This document shows positions 55,819 through 64,000 of a stretch of DNA of 64,000 bases, piece after piece. Source of the DNA: Saprospiraceae bacterium (GTDB lineage: Bacteria; Bacteroidota; Bacteroidia; Chitinophagales; Saprospiraceae). The notes beneath the pieces are model-generated. The model ran no database searches. It saw only the letters and a program-made list of their open reading frames with translations, and was not told the origin of the DNA. The stretch lies in contig JAQXDE010000035.1 in assembly GCA_029251525.1 (NCBI GenBank), positions 434,001 to 498,000 on the forward strand, given 5' to 3'. How positions within the stretch are numbered: the stretch's first letter is position 1; each line of letters begins with the position of its first letter. Both the position numbers and the translations under genes were made by a program.

Positions 55819-58689
55819 ATGAAAAATTACAATTTCAAATTAGGAACATTATCTTTCCTTTTTGTTTTGCTTTCTTTCACTTCTATCTTTTCTCAAGGAA
55901 CAATTTCAGGAACTGTATTAGACAAAGAATCTGGCGAGACAATGATCAGTGCAACGGTCTTAGTTGAAGGTACAGATGCAGGTGAAGTAACTGATTTTGA
56001 TGGAAAATATCAAATTAAAATAGATGCTGGAACTTACGATATAGTTTTTTCTTATGTAGGATATCCAGAAATGAAGATTGAAGGAGTTGTAGTAAAAGAT
56101 GGAGGGGTAACAGTTATAGATGCATTACTTACCATGGAAAAGGGCGGTGTTCAAATTGAGGAGATAGTAGTTCAAGCAGAGGCAATTAAGACTACTGAAA
56201 ATGCAATCTTAGTAACTAGGCTAAATGCCAATCGATTTACAGATGGTATTTCTCAAGGTGAAATGGCTAAATTAAACATTAGTAGCGCAGATCAAGCTGT
56301 AGCCAAAGTAGTTGGAGTTTCTATAGCTGATGGGAGTGTGGTAGTTCGAGGATTAGGAGATAGATATTCAACAGCTCAATTAAATGGTGCCTCTATTCCA
56401 AGTGCTAATCCCTACAAAAATAGTGTAAATTTAGATCTAATTCCTGCAGGACTTTTATCAAATATAATTACTTCCAAAACATTTACTCCAGACCAACCTG
56501 GAACTTTTACTGGAGGAAATGTAAATATCGAAACGAAGAGTTTTCCAGAAACTAAAAGTTTTAAAATTTCACTCTCTACAGGATATAATACACAATCCTC
56601 TTTTCAAAATAATTTTCTAACACACGACGGTGGAGATTTAGATTGGTTAGGATATGATGATGGATACCGATCTAGATCTTCTTTATATGATGATGAAAAT
56701 TATGCAGATGCGCTTTTAAGAAGTGCTGGAACGAAGGCAAGAAATGATGATGCTATGGCAGCTAAAGTAGAAGAATTGTATGACGCTACTTTGACGAATA
56801 TGGTTCCTACAACTACGACGACTCCGATGAATCATGGAATTGGATTTTCATTTGGAAATCAATATGAAGTTGGTGGAAGAGATTTGGGGGTTATTCTTTC
56901 TGCTAATTATTCAAGAAGTTTTAGACATTATGATGCTGGTTTGAGAAATTATGCTTTGGAATCTACTACTTCTCAGAACCTAAACCAAAACTTTAATTTG
57001 GGAGGAACTACCAGTATTGAAAGTCCAACAGTAGGTGGAATGGTAGGATTGTCTTATAAGATTAATCCATCAAATAGAATTTCTTTCAATACGCTGTATA
57101 ACCATTCAGCTGATAAAAGTACAAGATCCTTTTCTGGGGAACACAATACTTACCAAGTTACGTTTCCAGAGATTTTTGAATTTAGAGAGCTATATTGGCT
57201 GGAAAGATCATTATTAAATAATATGTTGTTAGGTCAGCATTTATTCGGTTCTGATGGGGTAAAATTGGAATGGATAGCGAGTGCTTCCGTTGCAACGCAA
57301 AGGGAGCCAGAGTTAAGATATTTTGGAAATGAATTTGATCCAAAAGATTTAGATGACCCAACAGATGATAGATATGCTATTCGAGCACCTTCTGAATATG
57401 ATTATCCTAATCATTTTTTTAGAAAACTGAGCGATGAACAATTTGAAGGGAAACTTGATTTAACTTTTCCAGTTTTACATAATCTAAGCAAAGGCAATAA
57501 AATTAAAACGGGTATTCTTTACTCCCTAAAAAATAGAATATTTGATGAAAGAAGGTATTCTGTACAAGAAAAAAGTGCTGAAAATTATAATGGAGATGCA
57601 GCTGCTTTTTTTAGCGATGAAAATAGTGGGGTAATTGAAAAAGATGCGAATGTTAGAAATGTAATTGGAAATTATATCGTAGATGATACTCGTGCTTCTA
57701 ATTCTTATATTGGTTCAGAAAAGGTGATGGCCATTTATGCTATGGGAACAATTGAACCAATAGAGAATTTAGATATTGTTTTTGGGACAAGAATTGAAAA
57801 TGCATCTTTACCTGTTGAAAGTGCAGATTCATTATACACTGCTGGAAAATTAAGTGTATTGCCTTCTATAAATTTACGATATGCATTGCGCAATAAGATG
57901 AACTTAAGAGCAGCTTTTACACAAACTGTTGCTAGACCAAACTTAAGAGAGTTAGCACCGTTTTCAAATTTTGATTTTCGAACAGGAGCCTTCATTGTTG
58001 GTAACCCCAAATTGAAAATTACTTCGATTACAAATTTAGATTTAAGATGGGAATGGATGCCAAGAATTGGTGAAATTTTAGCAATAAGTACTTATCTTAA
58101 ATCATTTATAAATCCCATCGTTTTAGTTAATTTAGGAAAGTCAAATCCTGAATTTCAATATCAAAATGTTGATAAAGCCACTGTTTATGGAGTTGAGTTG
58201 GAATATCGAAAAAACCTAGGATTCATTTCACCAGCCTTGAATAATTTCAAATTGGGTGCTAATCTATCATGTATTTATTCTGAAGTTGATATTGATGCAG
58301 AGGAGTTGGCAGATATTCGATCAATTAATCCTGATGCCAGCGATAAAAGAACTTTCTTCAATCAATCACCATATATAGTTAATACTAATTTGGTTTATTC
58401 TAATTCTGAGAAGAATATTGATGCAACACTTTCATTTAATATATTTGGAGATCGCTTGGTGATTGTTGGTCAAGAAGGAACTCCTGATATTTTTGAACAA
58501 ACTAGACCAAAATTAGATTTTACAATTTCTAAAAAAATAAAAGAAAATCTTTCGGTAAGATTATCTGCTAAAAATTTATTAGATCCGGAGTACAAACTAC
58601 AATCTTCCTTTAATGGAAATGATTATATCTATTCAAATTATAATTTAGGAAGAACCATTTCGATGAGTCTTTCCTACACAATTAATTAA
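55819..58689 (+). CDS. TonB-dependent outer-membrane receptor with CarboxypepD-regulatory-like N-terminus
   Basis: 956 residues. Sec signal (ends SIFSQ), then a CarbopepD_reg-like domain (GTISGTVLDKESGETMISAT, YDIVFSYVGYPEMKI, about 25-120), the plug (about 150-260, VVVRGLGDRYSTAQLNGASI, FTPDQPGTFTGGNVNIETKS) and a 22-strand barrel ending SMSLSYTIN. No SusD partner follows, so it is not a classical Sus pair. The preceding gene encodes a T9SS surface protein, and both have 11-bp repeat clusters upstream. This suggests one uptake system for a phosphorus-containing or metal-containing ligand under the PhoB-like regulator, which is inference. Confidence 0.92.
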   Translation: MKNYNFKLGTLSFLFVLLSFTSIFSQGTISGTVLDKESGETMISATVLVEGTDAGEVTDFDGKYQIKIDAGTYDIVFSYVGYPEMKIEGVVVKDGGVTVIDALLTMEKGGVQIEEIVVQAEAIKTTENAILVTRLNANRFTDGISQGEMAKLNISSADQAVAKVVGVSIADGSVVVRGLGDRYSTAQLNGASIPSANPYKNSVNLDLIPAGLLSNIITSKTFTPDQPGTFTGGNVNIETKSFPETKSFKISLSTGYNTQSSFQNNFLTHDGGDLDWLGYDDGYRSRSSLYDDENYADALLRSAGTKARNDDAMAAKVEELYDATLTNMVPTTTTTPMNHGIGFSFGNQYEVGGRDLGVILSANYSRSFRHYDAGLRNYALESTTSQNLNQNFNLGGTTSIESPTVGGMVGLSYKINPSNRISFNTLYNHSADKSTRSFSGEHNTYQVTFPEIFEFRELYWLERSLLNNMLLGQHLFGSDGVKLEWIASASVATQREPELRYFGNEFDPKDLDDPTDDRYAIRAPSEYDYPNHFFRKLSDEQFEGKLDLTFPVLHNLSKGNKIKTGILYSLKNRIFDERRYSVQEKSAENYNGDAAAFFSDENSGVIEKDANVRNVIGNYIVDDTRASNSYIGSEKVMAIYAMGTIEPIENLDIVFGTRIENASLPVESADSLYTAGKLSVLPSINLRYALRNKMNLRAAFTQTVARPNLRELAPFSNFDFRTGAFIVGNPKLKITSITNLDLRWEWMPRIGEILAISTYLKSFINPIVLVNLGKSNPEFQYQNVDKATVYGVELEYRKNLGFISPALNNFKLGANLSCIYSEVDIDAEELADIRSINPDASDKRTFFNQSPYIVNTNLVYSNSEKNIDATLSFNIFGDRLVIVGQEGTPDIFEQTRPKLDFTISKKIKENLSVRLSAKNLLDPEYKLQSSFNGNDYIYSNYNLGRTISMSLSYTIN

Positions 58690-58722
58690 TAGTCTTGCAC
58701 TAGATTATTTTGTTAGCATTCT

Positions 58723-58758
58723 AAGCCTCGGTGAATATATTTCTCCTGGGCTTTTTTG
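58723..58758 (+). terminator. intrinsic terminator after the TonB receptor gene
   Basis: AAGCCTCGG ... CCTGGGCTT, stem with two mismatches, then TTTT. It lies about 35 nt past the stop. Confidence 0.6.
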
Positions 58759-58765
58759 TTTTTAT

Positions 58766-58795
58766 TTTGAATTCAATTGGATTAGACTATTTTTG
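58766..58795 (+). promoter_or_regulatory. complete Bacteroidota promoter (-33 TTTG, -7 TAnnTTTG)
   Basis: TTTG at 58766-58769, 18 nt spacer, TATTTTTG at 58788-58795, then ATG at 58808. This is the best -33/-7 match seen in the window. Confidence 0.55.
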
Positions 58796-58807
58796 TGAAA
58801 AAAAAAC

Positions 58808-60196
58808 ATGTTTGGAAAAGAAACTTATATTCAAAGAAGAAATATTTTAAAAGAAAAGGTTGGTTCAGGATTAGTTCTCTTGATGGGAAATGATTATTCG
58901 CCAATGAACTATGAAGATAATATTTATAATTTTAGACAAGACAGTACATTTTTATATTATGCAGGAATTGATGTAGCTCATGTCGCAGTAATTATTGATA
59001 TCGATGCAAATAAAACGATTCTTTTTGGAAAAGATTTATCTGTTGAATATATTGTTTGGATGGGGATTCAACCAACGATGAGTGAGCTAGCTGACAAAAG
59101 TGGTATAGAGAAATTACAAGACTATAACAATATATCTACGTTTTTGAAAAATGCTAAATCAAAAGGGCGGGATGTTCATTTCCTTCCTCCGTATCGAGCA
59201 GAGAATAAATTGAAGATGGAAGAATGGTTGGATATAAGAGCGAAAGATTTGAAAAAAAATACTTCAAAGAAATTAATTCAAGCAGTCATAGTTCAGAGAT
59301 CCATAAAGTCTGCAGAGGAAGTTATTGAAATGGAGCATGCGGTTGCAATAACTAAAGAAATGCATGTTGCTGCTATGCAAGCAGCGAGAGAGGGAAGAAA
59401 GGAACATGACCTTGCAGGGATAGTTCAGGGTATCGCGAAAGGTTGTGGAGGTGATCTTGCATATCCAATTATAATGACTGTTAATGGGCAAACTTTACAC
59501 AACCACTACCATGGGAACACTTTAAAAGAGGGGCAGCTAGTTTTGGGAGATTTTGGTGCTGAAAATGGAATGCATTATGCAGGTGACATCACTCGTACAT
59601 TTCCAGTTGCAAAGAAATTTACTCAAAAGCAAAGAGAAATTTATCAAATAGTTTTAGATGCTGAGGAAGCGGCTATTCAAGCTTTAAAACCAAGTGTGGC
59701 TTACAAAACAATACATTTACAAGCTGCAAGAGATATGGCTGAAGGTTTGAAATCCATAGGGTTGATGAAGGGGAATATTGATGAGGCAGTTGAAGAAGGA
59801 GCACATGCTTTGTTTTTTCCACATGGTTTAGGGCACATGATAGGATTAGATGTTCATGATATGGAAGACCTTGGTGAAGATTTAGTTGGCTATGGAGAAG
59901 GTGTAAAAAGAAGTAAGCAATTTGGTTTGAAATCTTTAAGGCTTGGAAAAGAGTTGGAGGAGGGAAATGTTTTAACCGTTGAGCCTGGAATTTATTTTAT
60001 TCCAGAATTAATTGACCAATGGCAGGCTGATGGTAAATATGTTGATTTTTTAAATTATGATAAAATAAATAGTTACAGAGATTTTGGAGGTGTAAGGATC
60101 GAAGATAATATTTTAGTAACTAATTATGGTCATCAAGTTTTAGGCCCAAAGATTCCAAAAACTATTGAAGAGGTAGAAGCTGAAAGAATTCGATAG
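58808..60196 (+). CDS. pepP: Xaa-Pro aminopeptidase (M24B, PepP-like)
   Basis: 462 residues. Cytosolic metallo-aminopeptidase that removes an N-terminal residue before proline. Creatinase N-like domain (about 1-165: YNFRQDSTFLYYAGID), then the pita-bread domain with metal ligands in GDFGAENGMHYAGDITRTFP (two Asp), FFPHGLGHMIGLDVHD (His), LTVEPGIYF (Glu) and DFGGVRIEDNIL (Glu). HNHYHGNTL supplies the substrate-site His. It is monocistronic with a strong promoter match just upstream. The role is probably general peptide turnover; the RiPP genes downstream belong to another unit. Confidence 0.93.
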   Translation: MFGKETYIQRRNILKEKVGSGLVLLMGNDYSPMNYEDNIYNFRQDSTFLYYAGIDVAHVAVIIDIDANKTILFGKDLSVEYIVWMGIQPTMSELADKSGIEKLQDYNNISTFLKNAKSKGRDVHFLPPYRAENKLKMEEWLDIRAKDLKKNTSKKLIQAVIVQRSIKSAEEVIEMEHAVAITKEMHVAAMQAAREGRKEHDLAGIVQGIAKGCGGDLAYPIIMTVNGQTLHNHYHGNTLKEGQLVLGDFGAENGMHYAGDITRTFPVAKKFTQKQREIYQIVLDAEEAAIQALKPSVAYKTIHLQAARDMAEGLKSIGLMKGNIDEAVEEGAHALFFPHGLGHMIGLDVHDMEDLGEDLVGYGEGVKRSKQFGLKSLRLGKELEEGNVLTVEPGIYFIPELIDQWQADGKYVDFLNYDKINSYRDFGGVRIEDNILVTNYGHQVLGPKIPKTIEEVEAERIR

Positions 60197-60411
60197 TGTT
60201 TTTGGAAAATAAAGAAACGATTTTAATATTGACTGATTTTATCAGACAATTCAGTTTGTTGTATAGTATAGATTGAATCCGATGTAAAGCTTGAGTTATT
60301 ACTCTAGATATTAAAAATTGGCTAGCCACAATTCAAATTATAAATTCAATATTTATTTTGAATAAAACAATATGGTTATTTGTTCACTGCCCTAAATTAA
60401 ATTGGTTTTAA

Positions 60412-60638
60412 TTAGTAATAAATGTTTGAATAAAATCTTTTATACCGTTTAGCCGTTGAAAGCAAATTGGGATATTTTGCATATTCATTTAATTTAAAAC
60501 TTATTTCGTTCTTTTAAATAGAGACCATATCCCATAAATCGACCATTTTGATTTCCACGAGCAACTTAAAAGATAATTATCATTTAACAATAGTTTCTTA
60601 AAATCCTGCACCTTATAACCCAAATGCTCATTTGATAT
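60412..60638 (-). pseudogene. frameshifted gene remnant next to the RiPP locus
   Basis: On the minus strand a 45-codon frame reads ISNEHLGYKVQDFKKLLLN, then NYLLSCSWKSKWSIYGIWSL before a stop. The next frame continues without a break as NEISFKLNEYAKYPNLLSTA and ends FYSNIYY, about 77 codons in all. Upstream is a stop, with no start codon. The content is coding-like and consistent with the C-terminus of a decayed enzyme. Family not recognised. Confidence 0.4.
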
Positions 60639-60655
60639 TTAATAGGGGTTGAACT

Positions 60656-61173
60656 ATGTATAAGAAACAAACGGTTATGATTCCTGAATTTCCTTTTCAT
60701 AGACAATTAGGTGAATTATATTGTGGTTTGACTTGTATCAAAATGATATCTGATCATCTTTGGTATTTCATTTTGGTTACTTTAATTTTTTATTTACTTA
60801 ATAAAATGGTATTTCACTCAATGATATTAGTGATGTGGCAATTGAAATTGGTTTAAAGACCATTGGAGGAAAACATACCTTTTAGCATCTAGCTGAAGAT
60901 ATTTCTTGAATTTCATATTGTAAGCAACTACATTTTGTTGTTGTTTTTCACGTTAACAAGGAATAAATTTTAATTGCTGACCTAGTATCTAGAAGTATTT
61001 ATGTCCAGCCAAAAGAAGTTCTTCATGAAGGATGGGTTTGTGATTCTAAAACTCAGATTGGTATTTTATTATTGTTAGAAAGAACTTTAAGTCCAAAAAA
61101 TCTTAAAGCCTTGAGTTTAGTATTTGGACAAACTATCAGAGAGCAGAATCAATTCAATTATCAATTGATTTAG
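60656..61173 (+). pseudogene. decayed C39-peptidase domain of a peptidase-containing ABC exporter
   Basis: The first frame opens at ATG 60656 with FPFHRQLGELYCGLTCIKM, the C39 leader-peptidase start with catalytic C23 (usual D-C-G reads Y-C-G) and C27. After about 40 codons the homology moves to another frame: GISLNDISDVAIEIGLKTIG, then stops, then LHFVVVFHVNKE (catalytic His block), ILIADLVSRSIYVQPKEVLH, EGW and IGILLLLERT, the known end of the domain. At least four in-frame stops and one frameshift interrupt it, and the membrane and ATPase domains are gone. In live form it would cut a leader and export a modified peptide. It lies directly before the LanB-like gene. Confidence 0.8.
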
Positions 61174-61270
61174 AAATAATAAAATTCTAAGGTATTTGAT
61201 GGTAGATAGTGCATAACTATTCTGTCATTTTTTTAATTTTGAATATGTATCGAATAACTAATATATTAAT

Positions 61271-63781
61271 TTGATTTTTTTTCCACACATAATCGCTAGA
61301 GTAGGGGGCACTTCTTTTTCGCAACTAAAGACTTTATCAATAAATGAAATTTCATTTGTTGTCCTGTTAGAGCAAGTCTTAGAAAATGAAATTAGCCTTC
61401 AATTGAAATTCAATGACATTCTTTTATGCTTCAGTGCAACTTTTAAAAAGACTGATAATTATCGATTACGAGCTATTCTAAAAAATTGGAAAAAGGATTT
61501 TGAAAATAAGCGACTTTCCTTTTTGAAAAAATTAGAAAAAAATGATAAAAGAGAGTTGTTAAGGGAATTACTAATAAAAATTTCTATTTATTCGGATTCG
61601 ATATCGGAGCATGAAAAATTAAAAAAAGAATTTGATGCTGTTTTTAAGAAAGTTGAACTATATCAGTATAATTTTTTGATCAATTTTTTTCAAAATGAAT
61701 ACATTCAAAAAGGAATTTTGCAATCTAGTCATTCATTATTTTATCAAAATAATAAATTACCGCTAAGGCAAGCACAAGATTATAAAAAAAAAGAGAGACA
61801 AACACTTAGAGCCTTAGCGCAATATTTTTATAGAATTGGTGGGAAAACATCACCTTTAAGTCATTTTACAACGGTTGATGTTTTAAGTAAAAATGAGGGG
61901 GTTTTCCAAAGTAATAATTTAGAGAGTGGAAGAATTTTTTTCCAATACAATAACTTTATTTTGACAGAAATGAAAATTCTGTTACTAAAGGAGCCTACTT
62001 TTTTCGGACAATTACACTTGAAATTGAATCCATCAACTTTACTTTTAAGTGGTGAGCTTCATTTTATTAAAAACTCTAATAATATTGAAACTTATCAACA
62101 AGTAGAAACCTCCGAAATCCTTTTATATCTTAATCAATTAATTATTACTAATCAAGATTTGACTTTTGATTCTGTCGTGTCTTTATTGATAGAATCGGTA
62201 GAATCGGATAAGGAAAGCATTGAAGGGTATTTACTAGAATTAATTGAAATTGGATTATTGGAATGGCAATGGGACTTTTCAGGATTAACTTTTAATTGGG
62301 AATACAAGCTATTAGATTTTTTAACTAGGGTTGATTTTTTTAACAATAAAGATGCTTGGATAATTTGCTTGGATATGATGGTTCAGGGTAAAATACAATT
62401 AGAATTTGAGGATGCGAAATATCGATTTTTATTTCAAAAAAAATTAAAAACGGATTTAGAAAAATTAGGCTTAAAGAAAATTAATATAGAATTATTGTTT
62501 TTTGAGGATGTCAGAAAGGTCACTCAAGTTAAACTTTCTGAAAATGAAATTGAGCCAATTGTTCAATCATTAGACTTTTTGTTAAATCTTATTGAACCAT
62601 TAACTGAAGATAAAATAAAAGATAAAATTAAGTATTGTTACTCTCAAAATTTTAAAGGGAGGATATCTGTTCCTTTGTTGATATTTTATCAAACATATTA
62701 CCAACTTAATTTTAATAATATTACGCCCGAAAATGAGGGAAGAGATGAAAAAGTAGAATGGTTAAAATCAGAAATAAAGAAAACTGGTAGGGTTAATCAA
62801 TTTGGTGATTTAGTTTTTAATCTAAAAGATTTAGAGAATATTCTATTGGAGAAACCATCGAATCCAATGAAATGTTATAGTGGACTTTTTCAATTTTACA
62901 AAAAAGAAGAGAAAGTAAAAGCGGTGATTAATGGTTTGGCCCCTGGTTATGGGAAATTATTTGGCCGATTTTTACCCTTGTTTGACGATGAAATAACAAC
63001 ACAATTGCAAGAATGGAATATTGGAAATCAAGAAGAAGATTTATGGGTTGAAAATATAGATGCATCTGTCTTTAATGCTAATTTGCACCCACCACTTTTG
63101 ATTAATGAAATAAAAAATTCTAATAGTCAAAATAACTTACCTAGTGGATCTCAAATCTTAATTAAAGACATTGAAGTAATGATTGATGAAGACACAAAGG
63201 AAGTAATTTTGGTTTATTCCAAAACGAAAAAAAGAATTTATATTTTCGACTTTGGATCTGAGTATCCTGGGCATCGCTCACCAATGTTTCAACTTTTAAA
63301 CGGTTTTAACAAACCTCACTATACCTATCAATTTTTTATTAAAATTGTAAATGAAATGTTTATTGATATCCAACCTAACGACATTAAGAATTTTAGGCGA
63401 GTTGTAATTGATGATCATTTAATATTGCAACGAAAATCAAAGGAGGTTCCTCATTCCTTTTTTCCAGAAAAAGAAAAAAACGAATCAAATAGTTCTTATT
63501 TTGTAAAGGTTCAAAAGTGGAAATCTATCCATCATTTTCCACAATATGTCTTCATTAAGCCAAGTCAATTTTCTGAAAGTACAAGTGTAGTTTTAAATGA
63601 TGATATTTATAAACCTCAATTAATAGATTTGAACTCTCCAATTGCAATTGTGTTGTTACAGAAGTTTTTAAAAAAATATTTAGGTAGAGTGAAAATTGAG
63701 GAAATATTGCCAAGTGAAGAAGAATTTTTTGGAGATTCAGTTTCTGAATTCGTGGTTCAATGGAAAAATATTAGGGATTAG
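61271..63781 (+). CDS. LanB-type lantibiotic dehydratase (N-terminal/glutamylation part only)
   Basis: 836 residues. N-terminus FPHIIARVGGTSFSQLKTLS matches the family start (usual R-T-P replaced). The signature around residue 185-200, YFYRIGGKTSPLSHFTTVDV, is the R-x3-[RK]-T-x-P block of LanB proteins that use glutamyl-tRNA. The C-terminal part has NANLHPPLLINEI and EYPGHRSPMFQLL, seen near the end of this domain. There is no separate elimination (SpaB_C-like) domain, as in split LanB pairs of Bacteroidota or in peptide aminoacyl-tRNA ligases. The start is TTG at 61271 (stop at 61259 upstream, no in-frame ATG). The reading frame is intact although the exporter before it is dead. No LanC or precursor gene was found. 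Confidence 0.75.
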   Translation: MIFFPHIIARVGGTSFSQLKTLSINEISFVVLLEQVLENEISLQLKFNDILLCFSATFKKTDNYRLRAILKNWKKDFENKRLSFLKKLEKNDKRELLRELLIKISIYSDSISEHEKLKKEFDAVFKKVELYQYNFLINFFQNEYIQKGILQSSHSLFYQNNKLPLRQAQDYKKKERQTLRALAQYFYRIGGKTSPLSHFTTVDVLSKNEGVFQSNNLESGRIFFQYNNFILTEMKILLLKEPTFFGQLHLKLNPSTLLLSGELHFIKNSNNIETYQQVETSEILLYLNQLIITNQDLTFDSVVSLLIESVESDKESIEGYLLELIEIGLLEWQWDFSGLTFNWEYKLLDFLTRVDFFNNKDAWIICLDMMVQGKIQLEFEDAKYRFLFQKKLKTDLEKLGLKKINIELLFFEDVRKVTQVKLSENEIEPIVQSLDFLLNLIEPLTEDKIKDKIKYCYSQNFKGRISVPLLIFYQTYYQLNFNNITPENEGRDEKVEWLKSEIKKTGRVNQFGDLVFNLKDLENILLEKPSNPMKCYSGLFQFYKKEEKVKAVINGLAPGYGKLFGRFLPLFDDEITTQLQEWNIGNQEEDLWVENIDASVFNANLHPPLLINEIKNSNSQNNLPSGSQILIKDIEVMIDEDTKEVILVYSKTKKRIYIFDFGSEYPGHRSPMFQLLNGFNKPHYTYQFFIKIVNEMFIDIQPNDIKNFRRVVIDDHLILQRKSKEVPHSFFPEKEKNESNSSYFVKVQKWKSIHHFPQYVFIKPSQFSESTSVVLNDDIYKPQLIDLNSPIAIVLLQKFLKKYLGRVKIEEILPSEEEFFGDSVSEFVVQWKNIRD

Positions 63782-63788
63782 TTTTTAT

Positions 63789-63847
63789 AAATATTGAAGT
63801 ATTTCGTAAAACTTCTTTAAGATACTTTGCGAAGTACTTCAATATTT
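63789..63847. terminator. long hairpin between convergent genes
   Basis: AAATATTGAAGTA / TACTTCAATATTT, a perfect 13-bp stem extended by further pairs (TTCG/CGAA), loop about 25 nt. T-rich flanks are weak. It probably serves both the LanB-like gene and the gene ending at 63859. Confidence 0.55.
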
Positions 63848-63858
63848 GGGATAAAGAA

Positions 63859-64000
63859 TCAATCATTAATTTCTTCTAAGTCTAGTAAGAATGCATATTC
63901 TAGAGCAGTTTCTTTATGCTTTTCAAAACGACCTGCTAATCCTCCATGTCCAGCTACCATATCACAATGCATAACTAAGATGTTATTATCAGTTTTTAAA
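63859..64000 (-). CDS. ptrB: oligopeptidase B (S9 family), C-terminal fragment
   Basis: Only the last 46 codons are in the window. They read VMHCDMVAGHGGLAGRFEKH and then ETALEYAFLLDLEEIND, the conserved end of prolyl-oligopeptidase-family protease II, with the catalytic His in AGHGG. It is convergent with the LanB-like gene. The protein cuts short peptides after basic residues. The start lies beyond the window edge. Confidence 0.88.
   Translation of the reverse strand, partial: LKTDNNILVMHCDMVAGHGGLAGRFEKHKETALEYAFLLDLEEIND

Follow-up and report, generated by a model that had tools for sequence, protein, structure and literature searches.

Does an intact gene for a peptide-modifying enzyme beside a dead protease gene mark a dying locus, or one part of a pathway whose other genes lie elsewhere? 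This question is raised by a 64,000 bp stretch of DNA from a Saprospiraceae bacterium (GenBank assembly GCA_029251525.1, contig JAQXDE010000035.1, positions 434,001 to 498,000; hereafter the window), near the end of which an 836-codon LanB-type gene follows the remains of a C39 peptidase gene. The initial annotation described a decaying locus for a ribosomally synthesized and post-translationally modified peptide (RiPP); it is partly supported, in that the observation was confirmed while the interpretation proved largely wrong. We consider it probable that LanB belongs to a split-LanB pathway dispersed over the genome, making dehydrated, non-lanthionine peptides, one of them with a nearly invariant pentapeptide core. 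Below, G000 is the window's own genome and G001 to G004 are four congeners (same genus); the coordinates of the features are given in Table 1.

As described initially, the LanB frame is uninterrupted and contains no elimination (SpaB_C) part. It was matched by Lant_dehydr_N (PF04738; E 2e-12, 46.6 bits against a cut-off of 28), the only PF04738 match in the genome. The start codon is TTG in the window and, at the same position, in G001 and G003, and ATG in G002. An AlphaFold model built from a 38-row alignment had a mean pLDDT of 90.4 and matched TbtB (6ec8) over residues 3-832 of 836 (746 aligned, Z 28.5) and GodF over nearly the whole chain (Z 22.4). Further structural matches were MadB, NisB and MibB; in NisB only residues 6-706, the glutamylation part, were aligned. 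Searching PDB sequences with a LanB profile returned two matches, TbtB and GodF, the same two enzymes as the top structures. Glutathione synthetases (from E 0.02) and helical bundles, which ranked below the LanB enzymes in the structural search, were treated as background. NCBIfam gave LanB no match above cut-off, its sole weak row, a citrate synthase, being far below its own, and at E 0.01 neither LanB nor SpaB_C was matched by PHROGs. Since the fold follows TbtB and GodF over almost the whole length and NisB only over residues 6-706, the model indicates an untruncated LanB, the entire LanB_B half of a split class I dehydratase, limited to glutamylation, an activity that is itself predicted.

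The neighboring C39 gene is dead. Compared with the intact G001 gene it has six in-register stops and frameshifting deletions of 7 and 10 nt, in agreement with the stops and frameshift noticed at first, as well as a 6-nt deletion and the loss of its own stop codon; the PF03412 scan of the genome still matched the remnant, with stops within the match. The initial annotation took it for a dead leader-peptidase exporter. At the corresponding locus, however, LanB in G001, G002 and G003 is preceded by an intact free-standing C39 gene (157-165 aa), and no membrane or ATPase part was seen between the remnant and LanB or in the G001-G003 locus. Because the orthologues are complete at this length in three congeners, it was a free-standing protease that died, and a dead C39-ABC exporter at this locus is rejected. 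The alignment thus indicates that only an accessory C39 protease was lost, which was perhaps dispensable because exporters carry their own C39 domains. With no exporter at this locus to be outlived, the idea that LanB outlived its exporter has to be given up. Two intact C39-ABC exporters with HlyD lie elsewhere in the genome (contigs C48 and C57; identity to the G001 exporters 94% and 90%).

The inference that the intact LanB frame reflects selection held up. Against G001, dN was 0.32 and dS 1.39, the latter near saturation. Of 232 residues that do not vary among the three congeners, LanB retains 208 (the C39 remnant, 47/77), and it retains all 13 columns invariant in 37 relatives. Its 2,511 nt are free of disabling changes, where about 42 would be expected by proportion, from the eight found in 474 nt of C39, had it been neutral for as long. 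Unique changes on the G000 branch of LanB numbered 85 vs 56 with G003 as outgroup and 69 vs 58 with G002, compared with 37 vs 11 for the flanking M24 aminopeptidase P and 19 vs 4 for FabD, so that LanB is not accelerated beyond housekeeping genes. These comparisons point to purifying selection, with no sign of relaxed selection or decay. Plain early decay, with LanB next to die after C39, might be suspected from the dead neighbor and from a terminator-like hairpin between the two genes that folds less well in the window (z -1.1) than in G001 (-5.3) and G002 (-4.3; three folded), but the absence of disabling changes, the unexceptional branch rate and the intact SpaB_C partner described next all speak against it, and we regard it as highly improbable.

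The genome contains one PF14028 match (E 8e-42), a 346-aa SpaB_C gene beside fabD on another contig (C58:80065-81105). It retains all 21 columns invariant across 21 homologues (own sequence excluded from the set), including FxR, GxHxRLR, YxxExxRY and HxxxNRxG, motifs that we take to correspond to NisB catalytic residues. fabD is the neighbor in G003 too, the G001 copy is in two parts at contig ends, and G053 and G020 have an orphan SpaB_C beside dnaK.

We compared the divergence of LanB and SpaB_C in 39 pairs and two controls, hand-picked from fetched loci. Identity distances of the two proteins were correlated in adjacent pairs (r 0.91, 465 comparisons), in all 39 genomes including eight unlinked pairs (r 0.75, reached by 0 of 2000 permutations) and when only the eight unlinked pairs were used (r 0.76, 14 of 40320 permutations); the controls, additional SpaB_C copies of G003 and G053, showed no correlation with LanB. 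In G349 (9 contigs) and G378 (7 contigs), a single contig carries both LanB and SpaB_C, separated by about 89 and 95 kb, respectively, so in these two the unlinking is not an assembly artefact. Judged by its conserved motifs and co-divergence, the intact orphan SpaB_C encodes in trans the elimination domain that LanB lacks, which bears out the initial suggestion of a split, pinensin-type LanB.

A genome collection scan with the single LanB protein as query gave no match, and one with the LanB alignment gave 79 loci. We counted neighbors in L029-L088 without L037 (Phaeodactylibacter, SpaB_C adjacent), leaving out L089-L107 (mostly Actinomycetota). SpaB_C came directly after LanB in 38 of the 45 loci not labelled Saprospiraceae, which also held a C39-ABC exporter (30/45) or HlyD (24/45); among the Saprospiraceae-labelled loci, some cut by contig ends, SpaB_C was present in 0/14. 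Within the family, the two genes are adjacent in G024 (the L037 genome), G042, G114 and G193, and in G053, G020 and G026 LanB is preceded by a full C39-ABC exporter with HlyD. A second cluster of the split type in G003 (L143:4058-9078) consists of a 741-aa LanB, a 270-aa SpaB_C and, upstream, a 48-aa GG-type candidate precursor.

What might the pair act on? LanB clusters of relatives contain small open reading frames (ORFs) with a pinensin leader (KxxSFVT..GG; NF038180), and in Saprospiraceae such leader-bearing ORFs are scattered in the genome, many without Cys. A profile built from nine of them (A4) found two candidate precursors in G000, type A and type B, both Cys-free. A third A4 match (E 0.36) inside an 868-aa frame was dropped, and two NF038180 matches in G000 that stayed below threshold, one a 25-aa frame on C18 and the other part of a 622-aa frame on C32, were not accepted. 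The sequence NWIADTIVDIR in the type B core is common to G000, G001 and G004, with variants in G002 and G003. Other Saprospiraceae have type B-like precursors (e.g. L168, L169, L170, L239-L241) whose core resembles [RK][WF]T..[ED].R or contains WT; most of them are Cys-free.

Type A was followed through 398 Saprospiraceae genomes with its own profile. Matches reaching the core were found in 27 genomes of 15 genera; the other 17 of the 44 matched genomes had leader-only or partial matches. Stops flagged within the G000 and G004 matches lie past the natural stop codon. Gly-Gly, five residues and a stop occur in 25 of the 27, the five being exactly YTWVG in 23, and most cores end directly at the stop codon. 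Up to four synonymous codons are used per core position. Among 18 equal-length 39-aa sequences (G004 and eight others excluded), pairwise identity was 0.98 in the core and 0.20 in the linker before GG. The search was biased toward YTWVG because its seven seeds carried that core; beyond the seeds, 17/20 matches have exactly GGYTWVG and then the stop, and it was NF038180, a model of the leader alone, that first detected the G020 and G053 members. Of the 27 type A loci, 16 were examined, and in 15 of these type A stands head-to-head, at about 128-457 nt, with a gene for a pyridoxal phosphate (PLP) enzyme, assigned to the D-cysteine desulfhydrase family by a TIGR01275 match below its cut-off.

In the same 398 genomes, LanB occurs in 69 (ten of them weak or divergent matches), SpaB_C in 85 and both in 61 (p 7e-43). 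Genomes with type A have LanB in 23/27 cases (p 1e-15) and SpaB_C in 20/27. Without the seven seed genomes LanB is present in 17/20, and with G115 and G210 added to the type A set in 24/29. By genus, it occurs in 14 of the 15 type A genera vs 26/112 genera (p 5e-10). These tests ignore shared ancestry.

Several observations weigh against a common pathway. With the ten weak or divergent matches dropped, LanB remains in 19/27 type A genomes. In G004 (96% complete) type A and type B are both intact, and neither LanB nor SpaB_C was matched; G102 and G284 have type A and neither enzyme, and G160 has type A and SpaB_C without a LanB match. Conversely, G002 has LanB and type B without a type A match, 8 of the 69 LanB genomes (G002, G111, G137, G236, G238, G248, G262 and G435) have no SpaB_C match, and LanB is unmatched in 24 of the SpaB_C genomes. 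The type A core varies to YIWVG in G150 (GGYIWVG, Ile for Thr) and FTWIS in G114, and GG is missing in G026 (TDYTWVGR) and G170 (TDYTWVGKN). Both own precursors fall short of the NCBIfam pinensin-leader model NF038180, having been found with our home-built profile. G004 and other genomes lacking LanB also have C39-ABC exporters, so their assignment to the LanB pathway is tentative.

Some of these cases would be explained if the LanB-SpaB_C pair were real but types A and B were not its substrates, being exported unmodified or otherwise modified while LanB used an unseen precursor. G004, G102 and G284, which retain type A without a detected enzyme, and the G150 core without Thr fit this explanation. 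It would leave the strong co-occurrence of type A with LanB across genera unaccounted for, as well as the resemblance of the leader to those of pinensin-type LanB substrates, with the G053 type A precursor exceeding the NF038180 cut-off; we therefore think it unlikely.

LanB might also be a peptide aminoacyl-tRNA ligase (PEARL), extending the C-terminus of a scaffold peptide by an amino acid taken from aminoacyl-tRNA, with YTWVG as the docking end, the part that PLALA plays in known PEARL substrates. LanB resembles the PEARLs BhaBC and TglB in having no elimination domain in cis, and the end of its candidate substrate is conserved and mostly placed exactly at the stop codon; several PEARL substrates are reported to have a conserved C-terminal motif (PMC11962472). 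Here, however, a SpaB_C partner exists, and its presence in 61/69 LanB genomes and its co-divergence with LanB make a PEARL role less likely. In addition, the best fold and profile matches were glutamylating LanB_B enzymes, with no PEARL among the matches and none in the comparison, and the Gly-Gly ahead of the conserved end suits release of the core by C39 more than a retained scaffold. We consider a PEARL-like function quite unlikely.

Taking the dispersed split-LanB pathway as the preferred reading, we infer that LanB and SpaB_C act on the type A and B precursors as follows. The leader (KLxxLKVKS) of the scattered precursors would bind LanB, which would transfer glutamate from Glu-tRNA onto Thr or Ser of the Cys-free core; SpaB_C would then eliminate glutamate to give dehydrobutyrine (Dhb) or dehydroalanine (Dha). 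One of the C39-ABC exporters, on C48 or C57, may serve the pathway, cleaving after Gly-Gly and exporting the product. Of the other parts that the initial annotation had named, SpaB_C and candidate precursors were found in the genome, but LanC was not (searching G000-G004 with PF05147 gave nothing at E <= 0.001). Given this and the Cys-free core, lanthionine would not be formed, and the predicted type A product is Tyr-Dhb-Trp-Val-Gly. With no decay of LanB and with partner, exporters and candidate precursors elsewhere in the genome, neither the new role nor the early decay first proposed for LanB is needed.

Small precursors with a nearly fixed core are also known from PQQ and mycofactocin, whose enzymes differ from those of the LanB pathway. 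Antibiotics usually diversify, so the fixed YTWVG core tentatively suggests that the predicted dehydrated pentapeptide of Saprospiraceae could be a conserved small molecule, either a signal or cofactor-like, and not a diversifying antibiotic. If the pathway is real, Saprospiraceae use LanB-dependent chemistry for short Cys-free dehydropeptides, one core being near-invariant over 15 genera. Cluster-based logic would label LanB a decaying orphan and overlook such a pathway, since its enzyme, partner, exporters and precursors are spread over separate contigs. The YTWVG candidate is small enough for synthesis and for detection by mass.

The kinds of enzymes are already known. With TbtB (thiomuracin) and GodF (goadsporin), LanB shares a stand-alone LanB_B fold, the lack of an elimination domain in cis, a separate SpaB_C protein, a [KP]-x-SP-type motif and a similar length (836 aa vs 861 and 867 aa), but identity is 13-17% in the structural alignments, the partner gene lies on another contig and the precursors are scattered. 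In goadsporin synthesis, GodF and GodG, each homologous to one of the two domains of LanB, are a known split pair that yields Dha (PMC5303826). Split LanBs are also reported from class I clusters of Bacteroidetes by Walker et al. (PMC7268733), as are GG leaders and C39 proteases. The pinensin-type class I lanthipeptide clusters of Bacteroidota resemble our system in the split LanB and SpaB_C, the GG leader with a KxxSFVT-type motif and, in relatives, the C39-ABC exporter; they differ in that here no LanC match occurs in G000-G004, the own precursors are Cys-free, the parts lie on six contigs and C39 is free-standing. What is new is the dispersed layout together with the nearly invariant Cys-free pentapeptide core. 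In the open-access literature, we found neither the string YTWVG nor a paper treating lanthipeptides together with Saprospiraceae, and no dispersed LanB pathway of this kind was among the matches listed, as judged by titles and the starts of abstracts.

Table 1. Features of the window and candidate precursors elsewhere in the genome
Feature	Position	Strand	Remarks	Evidence
Split-type LanB, predicted glutamylation domain only	61271..63781	+	836 aa, TTG start	Open frame, PF04738, predicted structure, purifying selection
Dead free-standing C39 peptidase gene	60656..61127	+		Codon comparison with G001; PF03412 match containing stops; intact orthologues in congeners
Type A candidate precursor	C44:83620-83736		39 aa, ends KNDGGYTWVG (GG, then YTWVG)	Profile A4
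Type B candidate precursor	C61:165764-165964		GG, core containing NWIADTIVDIR	Profile A4
Type A with head-to-head PLP gene, own genome	L298:6472-7737 (G000 C44)			
Terminator-like hairpin and T-run	61198..61236	+	Between dead C39 gene and LanB	Four-genome alignment, folding
M24 aminopeptidase P	58808..60196	+	Syntenic flank, rate control; same neighbor in G001	PF00557/PF05195

The hairpin between the C39 remnant and LanB is present in the alignment rows of G001-G003 too, with stems that are altered yet still pair. As it can still be folded although C39 is dead, it may regulate LanB. An Rfam search of window positions 57000-64000 gave nothing at gathering scores. A tiny ORF in the same interval (9-12 codons, ATGAGAA...) was dropped as a precursor and is likely due to chance; inspected by eye in the G001-G003 rows, its sequence is not conserved, and its start is lost in G000.

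Two further observations concern C39 genes of the congeners. G004, in which LanB was not matched, encodes on its contig C29 a free-standing 173-aa C39 protein with a lipoprotein-like start (L141:8051-8572). A MORN-repeat gene, absent from the G000 and G001 locus, adjoins C39 in G002 and G003 (L019:11425-12555 and L020:8812-9831), as assigned by PF02493 run on the L020 copy only.

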